In this document: piece after piece, positions 10,609 to 52,511 of the stretch
Numbering within the stretch: the first letter of the stretch is position 1
Layout of the letters: every line of letters starts with the position of its first letter
Source of the DNA: an uncultured Flavobacteriales bacterium
GTDB lineage: Bacteria > Bacteroidota > Bacteroidia > Palsa-965
DNA: 64,000 bases
Assembly: GCA_903873905.1 (NCBI GenBank)
Contig: CAIQQJ010000115.1
Location: forward strand, 42,356 to 106,355
Direction of reading: 5' to 3'
The notes under the pieces: generated by a model
Seen by the model: the letters and a program-made list of their open reading frames with translations, nothing else
Database searches by the model: none
Told to the model about the DNA's origin: nothing
Translations under genes and position numbers: made by a program

Positions 10609-10615
10609 TTACAGC

Positions 10616-10694
10616 CTTCGATACATTTTTTGTCAAACAAAAAATCTTATTTCAAAAGAACATTGTTGTGACAAAAAACACTCAGTCTGACAAT
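10616..10694 (+). repeat. Interspersed variable-hairpin element, arms CTTCGATACAT / ACTCAGTCTGACAA
   Basis: CTTCGATACATTTTTTGTCA...TGACAAAAAACACTCAGTCTGACAA; related copies at 30309-30486 and 52206-52252. Confidence 0.8.
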
Positions 10695-29307: not shown

Positions 29308-30306
29308 GTGGAATACAACGAAATCATTTCGGATTTAAAAAAGAAAATCTACAAACCGATTTATTTTCTTTCCGGAGAAGAACCTTATTTCATTGATCTG
29401 ATTTCAGATTTCATTGAGAAAAATGTACTCGATGAAAATGAACGCGAATTCAATCAAACAATTTTATACGGGCGTGACACCGATGTTGGAACGATTATCG
29501 GTGAAGCGAAACGCTATCCGATGATGTCGGACAAAATGGTGGTGATTGTAAAAGAAGCGCAGTCCTTAAAAAACATTGAGGACTTAGATGCTTACGTCAA
29601 CAATCCGCTCACCTCCACGCTGCTTGTCATTTGTTACAAATACAAAACGCTCGACAAGAGAAAATCATTTCCAAAAACGGTCGCAAAAAAAGGTGTTCTG
29701 TTTGAATCAAAAAAACTGTACGAGAATAAAATTCCAGATTGGATTTCGTCTTATTTAAAGGAGAGAAAATATACGGTAAGTCCGAAATCCTCTCAACTGC
29801 TCACGGAATATCTCGGAACTGATCTTGGAAAAATTGTCAATGAACTTGACAAGTTGATGATCAATCTTCCTCCCGGAACTGAAATCACACCTGATCATAT
29901 TCAAACTAACATTGGGATCAGCAAGGATTTCAATACGTTCGAGTTGAATGATGCTTTGACAAAAAGAGATGTTGTGAAAGCGAATCGGATCATCAATTAT
30001 TTCGCAGCAAATTCAAAAGACCATCCACTGGTTCTTACAATTGCTTCGCTGAATTCCTTTTTCGTAAAACTTTTACGTTATCACGGACTGGAAGACAAAT
30101 CAAAAGATTCTGCAGCAAAAGCACTGGGAGTTCATCCGTTTTTTGTTGGCGATTATATTGCCGCCGCGAAAAATTACCCAATGCAAAAACTGAAATCAAT
30201 TTTTTCTTTCTTAAGAGAATATGATTTGCGATCTAAAGGAATTGACAATGTGAGCGCGGACGAGGGGGAACTGATGAAGGAACTTATCTGGAAAATATTA
30301 CACTGA
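29308..30306 (+). CDS. holA: DNA polymerase III subunit delta
   Basis: PIYFLSGEEPYFIDLISDFIE...; GTG start; HolA length and architecture. Confidence 0.9.
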   Translation: MEYNEIISDLKKKIYKPIYFLSGEEPYFIDLISDFIEKNVLDENEREFNQTILYGRDTDVGTIIGEAKRYPMMSDKMVVIVKEAQSLKNIEDLDAYVNNPLTSTLLVICYKYKTLDKRKSFPKTVAKKGVLFESKKLYENKIPDWISSYLKERKYTVSPKSSQLLTEYLGTDLGKIVNELDKLMINLPPGTEITPDHIQTNIGISKDFNTFELNDALTKRDVVKANRIINYFAANSKDHPLVLTIASLNSFFVKLLRYHGLEDKSKDSAAKALGVHPFFVGDYIAAAKNYPMQKLKSIFSFLREYDLRSKGIDNVSADEGELMKELIWKILH

Positions 30307-30308
30307 GA

Positions 30309-30486
30309 CTTCGATACATTTTTCTTTTTTGTCAGTTTTAGTTCTAACCGAAAAGTAATCTTGAATTTGACAAAAAAGAAAAACACTCAGTCTGACAATA
30401 ATAATATTTTGTCAGACTGAGTGTTTTTTTCAGATCTGAAAATTTTCTTTCATTTTGAAATCTTGTCCTGAAAAAATGTATCGAAG
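30309..30486. repeat. Head-to-head pair of CTTCGATAC...ACTCAGTCTGACA elements forming a bidirectional terminator-like structure
   Basis: Outer ends CTTCGATACATTTTT and AAAAAATGTATCGAAG; 16-bp perfect stem 30319-30334/30368-30383; 17-bp perfect central stem 30382-30398/30409-30425 followed by a T-tract. Confidence 0.9.
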
Positions 30487-30487
30487 T

Positions 30488-30877
30488 CTACTTCCTACCG
30501 GGAACTCTTTTTGTAGGATCAACGGAAGCATAAGTGAAAGGGATGTCCACAATTTCTGAAAATGTTTCGCCGTGGTCGCGCATTTCTTCATCATCTGAAT
30601 AATATTCCCACATAACAGACAAAGGAATTTGCTTTAGATCTTTCACGATTCGCATGTAATCCAAAAATGCTTTGGAAGAAAGCGTGTTCATATATTCCAA
30701 ACGGAAAGTGAATGAAAATGATTTCACCAATTCAGGATCAAGCGCCTCGATGAATTCTTCTATAGGCCTAAAAAAAACGTAAGCGTTTTCCGGAATAGAA
30801 ACTCCCGCAATCATTACAGAACCACCCACTTCATCAAGTACAATAAGAGGTGTGTGCCTTGTCGCTTCAATTTTCAT
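30488..30877 (-). CDS. SiaC-family (DUF1987) regulatory phosphoprotein
   Basis: TPLIVLDEVGGSVMIAGVSIPENAYVFFRPIEEFI...FRLEYMNTLSSKAFLDYMRIVKDL. Confidence 0.85.
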   Translation of the reverse strand: MKIEATRHTPLIVLDEVGGSVMIAGVSIPENAYVFFRPIEEFIEALDPELVKSFSFTFRLEYMNTLSSKAFLDYMRIVKDLKQIPLSVMWEYYSDDEEMRDHGETFSEIVDIPFTYASVDPTKRVPGRK

Positions 30878-49865: not shown

Positions 49866-52205
49866 ATGCGTAATCTATTAATTGCCTGCTTCGCTTTTTT
49901 TGCATTCGGAAATGCATTTGCTCAGATTGCTCCGCTTGAGCCCAATGGCAATCTTCCAACTTTTTTCTACAATCCGAGTCATGTATTAGTTGATCATGAA
50001 ATCGCAAAAAGAAATTCCAGTGGTGATCCTGTCAATACACAAGAGGAAGCTTTTATGCGCGAGATGAGTTATTATGCGCAGCAAAGAATGATTAGTGGAC
50101 TCGTGCTTTTTAATGATTCACTCAGTGCGTATGTGAGTAAAGTGGGAGCCGTACTTTTAAAAGACGACACTGCAACGCTGCACAAACTACATTTTTACGC
50201 TTACAAAAGTCCTGATCCAAATGCTTTTACTTCTGCCACTGGAAATATTCTTATCACAGTCGGACTTCTTGCGCAGTTGGATAATGAAGCGCAACTGGCC
50301 TATATTCTTGCGCACGAAATCACGCACTTTCGCCAACATCACATGCTGAAAGGTTATCTCAACAGGGAAGATCTAAAAGAGCGTAGCGATGACACACCTT
50401 CCTATCTTTTACTTTCCTCCTATTATTCATACAACCAGGAACAGGAACTTGAGGCGGATCAAATGGGATTTGAATTGTATAAAAAATCTCCTTACAGTGC
50501 AAAGGAAGCGCTTCGGTCATTTGATGTTCTCGATTATTCCGATTTACCCTTCGATGATATTCCTTTCGACACAACATTCTTCAATAAAAATTTCATGACC
50601 ATTCCTGTGGGATATTTTTTGAAAGATGTAGACCCAATTTATTCCGACGACAATTACGAAGATAGAAACAGCACGCATCCGAATGTTCGCAAACGCAGAA
50701 TGGCTTTGATGACAGAAGTGGATACTGTAAAAAATGGAGGAACGCATTTATTCATTGTTTCCAAAGATGAATTTTTGCGTGTACGTGAAAAATCTCGTTA
50801 TGAAATTTGTCGCCTGTATTTGCTTGATCGTAATTATCCAAGCGCGATTTATTCTTCCTACATGATGCTGCAACGTCACCCAAATGATATTTATCTGGAG
50901 AAAATAATTGGACGTTGTTTGTATGAACTTGCGGCGTATAACCAGACCAGCAGCGGTGGTTCAAATTACAATCCCTATTTGATGTATGATTTCTTTTCCG
51001 GCAACAGTGGAAAATATTCTGCACTAAATCGTGGTGGTTATTATCGAATTCCTGATTTCAAGGATTATCCTGGACAACAACAACAACTTTATCATTTATT
51101 CCATGAAATAGAACCCGATGAATTAACGGTTCTTGCCTTATCCTACAACTGGACACTTCACAAAACTGATCCTTCTGATAATTTTCAAAAATCACTTTGC
51201 GATAGTTTATTTATCATGCTGGTGAATAAGCAGAATTTGCACATGAGCTATTTTTCCACCATCACGCCCGATGCGGCGAAAGAACAATACCGAAAAGATT
51301 CTTTGCAACGCGTAACAGAAACAGGCGAAACAGGTGAATCAAAATATTCACGTATGGATAAATTCCGTTTGAATTCACAAAAAGAACGTTTTACAAAATT
51401 CGCTTTTGTTGAACAATTGCATGACACTGAATTCGTCCATACGTTTAAATATTTCACGGATCATCGTGCGAGTCTTGTTACCACGTCTGACAATTCCGTG
51501 TTTGACAAGCAGACAAAAAAACAAATACAGGCAGATAAAAAAGAAGAAGAAAATTATGGTTTCGGAATTTTGAAAGTGATTGTTGTTTCTCCTGATTATG
51601 AAAAATACATTCAGTTGAAACGTAAAAAAGACGCTGAACAGAATTTTGCTGCGAGTGAAGAAGGACAAAAAACACTAGGCACAACCATTTCCAAAGAAGC
51701 GAAAAGTGCTGGTGTAGAATGTGTCATGATGAATCCTTTTGGAATGGACAGTTTGGCTGGCGACACTTTTTCAGATCTCGCAATTTTAAACGAATGGTTC
51801 TTTGAACGTCTGCAACATGGAACTGGTGGATATGCAACGACCATTAACAATCAAATGCAAATTGATTCGATCATCAAGCGTTATGGAACTCGTTATGTGA
51901 TGTTCACCATGGTGGAAACAGAATACCGCAAAAAAATTCAACATCCATTTTGGTTTGGAGTTTCTTGTCTTGTTGTTGTTCCTGCAATCAGAGTTTTCAT
52001 TCCACGTCATTCGATGACATACGATGTGGCGATTTTGGATTTAAAAACAGGTGAGGTTATTTCCGTTCAACACACGCGAAAAAATCATGGAAAGGAAATT
52101 GAAAACAATCCGGCATTCTACAAAAAGCTTTTTGCAAAAATGGCGCTTCGCAAAAAACCAAAAGCCGATGGGAAACCTGTAACAGAAGCGGAAAGAGGAA
52201 TGTGA
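49866..52205 (+). CDS. M48-like metalloprotease with long C-terminal extension
   Basis: Signal peptide; AYILAHEITHFRQHH; downstream ELEADQMGFELY. Confidence 0.85.
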   Translation: MRNLLIACFAFFAFGNAFAQIAPLEPNGNLPTFFYNPSHVLVDHEIAKRNSSGDPVNTQEEAFMREMSYYAQQRMISGLVLFNDSLSAYVSKVGAVLLKDDTATLHKLHFYAYKSPDPNAFTSATGNILITVGLLAQLDNEAQLAYILAHEITHFRQHHMLKGYLNREDLKERSDDTPSYLLLSSYYSYNQEQELEADQMGFELYKKSPYSAKEALRSFDVLDYSDLPFDDIPFDTTFFNKNFMTIPVGYFLKDVDPIYSDDNYEDRNSTHPNVRKRRMALMTEVDTVKNGGTHLFIVSKDEFLRVREKSRYEICRLYLLDRNYPSAIYSSYMMLQRHPNDIYLEKIIGRCLYELAAYNQTSSGGSNYNPYLMYDFFSGNSGKYSALNRGGYYRIPDFKDYPGQQQQLYHLFHEIEPDELTVLALSYNWTLHKTDPSDNFQKSLCDSLFIMLVNKQNLHMSYFSTITPDAAKEQYRKDSLQRVTETGETGESKYSRMDKFRLNSQKERFTKFAFVEQLHDTEFVHTFKYFTDHRASLVTTSDNSVFDKQTKKQIQADKKEEENYGFGILKVIVVSPDYEKYIQLKRKKDAEQNFAASEEGQKTLGTTISKEAKSAGVECVMMNPFGMDSLAGDTFSDLAILNEWFFERLQHGTGGYATTINNQMQIDSIIKRYGTRYVMFTMVETEYRKKIQHPFWFGVSCLVVVPAIRVFIPRHSMTYDVAILDLKTGEVISVQHTRKNHGKEIENNPAFYKKLFAKMALRKKPKADGKPVTEAERGM

Positions 52206-52511
52206 CCTCGATACGTCTTGCTGGAAAAACGCAAGCCTACTCAGTCAGACAAATTTACAATTTACTAAAACTCCTAACATTCTTTTTCTCATCCTTTCGA
52301 CAATAACTTCTTATTGATAAGCAACAACTATTTCATTGGTAATTGGTAATCTGTAATCATTATGGCGTGCCCCCATCCCCCAAACAGAATTGTTGGGGGG
52401 ATGGGCTTTCTCCCGAAGGGACCACTATGTGGCACTACTATCCCTCACGCAAAAGAAATTTCCAATTGAAAGAAAATTGGAAATTGGAAATTAATAAATT
52501 GAAAATAATTT
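52206..52511. repeat. Composite repeat region between convergent genes (four repeat types)
   Basis: 52206-52252 CTCGATACGT..ACTCAGTCAGACAA; 52335-52358 TTGGTAATTGGTAAT; 52364-52459 reverse TTTTGCGTGAGGGAT..GGGCACGCC element; 52463-52508 ATTGGAA heptamers. Confidence 0.8.

Follow-up and report, generated by a model that had tools for sequence, protein, structure and literature searches.

REPs tagged with CGTC, TGTC variants included, occur in Bacteroidetes among others and are apparently without a dedicated transposase; the published ones have loops of 4–5 nt and mostly head-head dimers with the tag outside, and the criterion for their stem is 8–9 bp with A-T pairs at the first and second positions (Di Nocera et al, 2013, PMC3733652). 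The same study placed REPs mostly between co-directional and convergent ORFs, downstream of ORFs, with most of the conv-REPs in the two species diagrammed lying within 20 bp of 3′ ends, and the ends of GTAG REPs often supplying a TAG stop (PMC3733652). The E. coli REP/BIME elements and the RAYT-associated GTAG REPs are intergenic palindromes, many of them close behind stop codons, and roles in termination, translation, and mRNA stability have been ascribed to them; according to work cited in PMC12306157, ribosomes were reported to stall at E. coli REPs that lie near stops. Inverted pairs of REP-like units have been described as REPINs (Bertels & Rainey, 2011, PMC3116915).

The window analysed here, a stretch of DNA of 64 kb, contains the convergent genes holA and siaC, the stop codons of which are 181 nt apart. 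These gene names, given in the original prediction, agree with the TIGR01128 and PF09345 matches. The features of the gap, along with a further single copy of its repeat in the window, are as follows.

29308–30306, plus strand: holA, DNA polymerase III delta subunit (TIGR01128, E = 3.4e-79); stop TGA at 30304–30306.
30488–30877, minus strand: siaC-family gene, SiaC-family protein (PF09345, E = 1.1e-23); stop TAG at 30490–30488 on the minus strand.
30303–30398, plus strand: first repeat copy (copy 1), of the long class, matched by covariance model R1 with 54.4 bits (E = 5.6e-13); its left end is CTTCGATACA at 30309 and its right end CACTCAGTCTGACAA.
30409–30492, minus strand: second repeat copy (copy 2), of the long class, matched by R1 with 72.1 bits (E = 4.2e-18); it reads leftwards from its left end, CTTCGATACA at 30486.
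30319–30383, plus strand: apical hairpin within copy 1; a 33-nt loop between perfect arms of 16 bp at 30319–30334 and 30368–30383.
30379–30428, no strand assigned: inner-arm hairpin, made where the right ends of the copies face each other; a perfect stem of 20 bp at 30379–30398 and 30409–30428 with a loop of 10 nt and a T-tract on each strand, and hence a candidate for a bidirectional intrinsic terminator.
30306–30489, no strand assigned: outer perfect inverted repeat AGACTTCGATACATTTTT; 18 bp at 30306–30323 and 30472–30489, overlapping both stop codons.
10610–10693, plus strand: further copy of the repeat; R1, 75.4 bits; 7 nt behind a TAA stop.

As claimed, the gap is filled by an interspersed repeat in two copies, one inverted relative to the other; the perfect arms measure 16, 18, and 20 bp. 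The predicted coordinates were correct within a few bases; 2 nt and not 3 nt separate the TGA from CTTCG at 30309. Each half had been credited with a stem of its own; this is so for copy 1, where the 16-bp perfect stem was found as claimed, and the own stem of copy 2 is weak (fold z = −0.4). The inner arms do pair perfectly, over 20 bp rather than the 17 bp proposed, and the T-tract noted beside them was found as T-rich sequence on both strands. The outer pairing reaches into both stop codons, taking in the final base of the one in holA and the AG of the TAG in siaC, and the apical hairpins of the two copies are unrelated. Three of the four perfect inverted repeats in the window (≥15 bp, within 250 nt) lie in this gap, whereas nine of 10 shuffled windows contained none and the tenth contained one. 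The fold of 30303–30489 has an energy of −73 kcal/mol compared with a shuffle mean of −32.4 (z = −10.4). A weak R1 match (20.3 bits) at 52200–52252 of the window is possibly a decayed copy.

The gap sequence matched many other places in the same genome. The copies, read from searches and fetched genome stretches, share the ends AGnC-TTCGATAC and ACTCA-GnCT-GACAA, between which lies an apical hairpin of variable sequence. In this genome, 75 copies, nested ones included, were obtained by pattern searches together with a regular-expression scan, and the covariance model R1, built from 25 copies (alignment A1), matched at 77 places. The same model matched 6, 1, and 1 times in three congeners and not at all in three more; the genome analysed is in 181 contigs and its copy counts are lower bounds. 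Compensatory change is strong: 11 of 20 pairs of A1 had changes on both sides, and the covariation score was 0.234 versus 0.137 when shuffled, with none of 500 shuffles reaching the observed value, in a test where the structure was drawn from one aligned copy and is thus favoured over slid versions. The basal stem AGnCT carries a TC bulge, its first pair being A-T in 22 and its second G-C in 20 of the 25 copies, and the right end, read as TTGTC (the reverse complement of GACAA), is invariant or nearly so in A1. By core length, the copies fall into a long class of 70–92 nt and a short class of 36–52 nt, and a reverse short copy is nested in the loop of some long copies (loci L002, L003, L005, L007, and L089). 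At L014 (G000:C15) and L018 (G000:C19), long copies and 38-nt short copies are clustered ~100–650 nt apart, some of them nearly identical. Columns 17 and 78 of A1, a position pair beside the apical stem, are mostly A/C, with G/T or T/A in some copies, a pattern that looks like the exchange of an A-C mismatch for G-U.

No known RNA family was identified for the repeat by Rfam scans, which gave no match at the gathering score in ten loci with repeat copies and, in a permissive scan of the holA/siaC gap, only matches below gathering scores. A text search of the literature with the short core sequence found no paper. The conserved ends and variable middle had suggested integron attC-like cassette ends, against which stands the position of the copies behind housekeeping genes. 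A close likeness was found with the CGTC/TGTC REPs: the reverse complement of the repeat, TTGTC-AGnCT-GAG...TCGAA-GnCT, has a four-base tag (the TGTC variant) beside a stem, and the repeat has many copies, some of them dimers, mostly downstream of ORFs. Unlike those REPs, it has a long variable apical hairpin and not a loop of 4–5 nt, its second stem pair is G-C and not A-T, and in its dimers the tag ends point inward. Because the tag and stem logic is common to CGTC REPs and the 4–5-nt loop is absent, we file the repeat as a variant within the REP kind, neither a plain CGTC/TGTC member nor a new system. The repeat also resembles E. coli REP/BIME and the RAYT-associated GTAG REPs as an intergenic palindrome often close behind stops. 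RAYT REPs were nevertheless rejected as its identity, as the tag is TTGTC and not GTAG or GTGG, and the Y1 transposase genes of this genome adjoin other palindromes. Three such genes (PF01797) are present; their fetched loci contained no copy of the repeat, and those at L098 and L099 are near the palindromes CTATCCCGTTAGGGATTA and AACCCCAAGCTTCAGCTTGGGGTTAT.

The position of the copies relative to genes was examined for 74 of the 77 R1 matches, the three nested inner copies being excluded. A copy was taken as stop-adjacent when its end lay 0–11 nt behind the stop of an open frame of ≥90 codons, the frames being called by simple rules. The left end was so placed behind a same-sense stop in 48/74 copies, and the right end beside an opposing stop in only 4/74. 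With random position and orientation in the same gaps, 8.7 stop-adjacent copies were expected versus 44 observed among 70, and the maximum in 200,000 simulations was 20. The stops ahead of the 48 copies were TAG in 30, TAA in 13, and TGA in 5, compared with 115 TAA, 65 TAG, and 49 TGA for long frames of the same loci in an earlier set. Where the TAG lies one base before CTTCG, the AG of the stop is the AG of the conserved AGnC. The genes for GAPDH, malate dehydrogenase, and a glutamate dehydrogenase-like protein end in TAG here and in TAA or TGA among the congener stops read, which are a small sample. The genes carrying copies are unrelated housekeeping genes (IF-2, MutS2, GAPDH, and malate dehydrogenase among them were named from sequence, without a family search). 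The placement tracks the upstream gene, its stop codon and its strand, and not terminators. It follows from the left-end-to-stop rule that converging genes with one copy each give an inverted pair with right ends inward.

In three congeners, holA and siaC are likewise adjacent and convergent without a copy, and the gaps are 96, 30, and −4 nt; in each of the three, HolA has its end at the equivalent residue. Therefore, it is the ancestral stop that precedes the element, and the repeat accounts for nearly all of the gap here. Truncation of host proteins by the repeat was rejected, as the congener proteins have identical or nearly identical C-termini. This comparison with congeners is the ground on which the repeat appears to be mobile.

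These results together make it probable that the gap is occupied by a REP-like interspersed palindrome in two copies that turn their right ends toward each other, a palindrome that resembles the CGTC/TGTC REPs and has an extra variable apical hairpin. The copies would have spread, probably by a process that recognises a single-stranded hairpin, and once transcribed would form 3′-UTR hairpins. The facing right ends of the pair would form the 20-bp stem with its T-tract and so may end transcripts from both genes; termination of this kind would arise incidentally where two copies meet and would not be the role of the family.

The placement data also bear on another reading, to which we give slightly less than an even chance, namely that the repeat is a selected 3′-UTR RNA element for translation end or mRNA decay. 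A hairpin within 15 nt of the stop would stall the terminating ribosome or block 3′ exonucleases, and copies would persist mainly where they are tolerated or useful. The stop proximity and strand polarity of the copies fit such a role, as do the compensatory changes that keep the structure and the like placement of the short form GTCAGCCTTCGACAAGCTCAGTCTGACA, with a small loop, in the congener G003, where it lies 5–12 nt behind the stop in 11 of the 15 copies read. However, the same genes in congeners are without copies, which argues against a conserved function at any given gene, and the genes carrying copies are unrelated housekeeping genes.

Whether the family serves termination was examined by scanning the 48 stop-adjacent copies. 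A separate intrinsic terminator was present downstream of 15, none was detected by the scan for 27, and in 6 copies at five loci, both holA/siaC copies included, a terminator-like hairpin arises from facing right arms; the shuffle rate for any terminator was 2.3%. Because 15 copies precede a separate terminator and 27 are without a detected one, the family does not mark or target terminators; the suggestion that it targets them was not supported, and the family as terminators was rejected. A facing-arm hairpin of this kind recurs at four loci besides holA/siaC. In the holA/siaC pair, the stem has 16–20 pairs, 7 of them G-C, and T-rich tails on both strands; the 20-bp inner stem reaches −29.5 and −28.7 kcal/mol, and a stricter terminator scan (loop ≤8) found none because the loop of the inner hairpin is 10 nt. 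Bidirectional intrinsic terminators between converging genes likewise consist of a stem and a T-tract on each strand; here, the stem is built from the ends of two repeat copies. Judged from its sequence, the holA/siaC pair is plausible as a two-way intrinsic terminator.

It is a further and more doubtful step, which we entertain tentatively, that the pair has been domesticated as a bidirectional terminator and is kept by selection at holA/siaC. The strength of its 20-bp inner stem and the recurrence of facing-arm hairpins would suit this. At GAPDH, congeners have a hairpin and T-run behind the stop, while the hairpin found in this genome is the facing-arm one, and the facing arms at L092 have the same off-consensus pair in common. 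Such selection is harder to reconcile with congeners that have no element at holA/siaC, with gaps down to −4 nt, and with the 15/48 copies that have a separate terminator downstream.

The pairing of copies could also mean that a REPIN-like dimer is the inserting unit and that single copies are remnants of decayed dimers, which we consider unlikely. Right ends face each other 9–14 nt apart at about nine loci, where several partners are decayed, and in P. fluorescens most GTAG-1 singletons were described as dimer remnants (PMC3733652). However, a recognisable partner is lacking for most copies, a partner-like match within 70 nt being found for 27/69 where chance gives 15%, and the holA/siaC partners have unrelated apical hairpins. 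The repeat also differs from REPINs in that a search for a cognate RAYT gave none. Least probable, and in our view rather improbable, is a mobile hairpin with a true insertion preference for stop codons, landing in or just behind the stop and supplying the AG of a new UAG with the protein left intact.

The repeat offers a clean and countable case of REP-like elements that obey a stop-codon rule specific to the strand, and the syntenic sites in congeners are empty. Two questions can be tested with it: by what means REPs of the CGTC type spread when no transposase is known for them, and whether stop adjacency reflects a preference at insertion or else selection acting on translation end and mRNA 3′ ends. 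Beyond the congeners, a few long forms were found in further Bacteroidota assemblies and one in a contig with the label Peregrinibacteria. Long forms are arranged in tandem arrays with a period of ~109 bp at L107 and L111 of Bacteroidales S145_13, with seven and four matches, respectively, and a 26-bp tandem array of a short repeat with CTCAGTCTGACA was seen at L189 (G006:C20).
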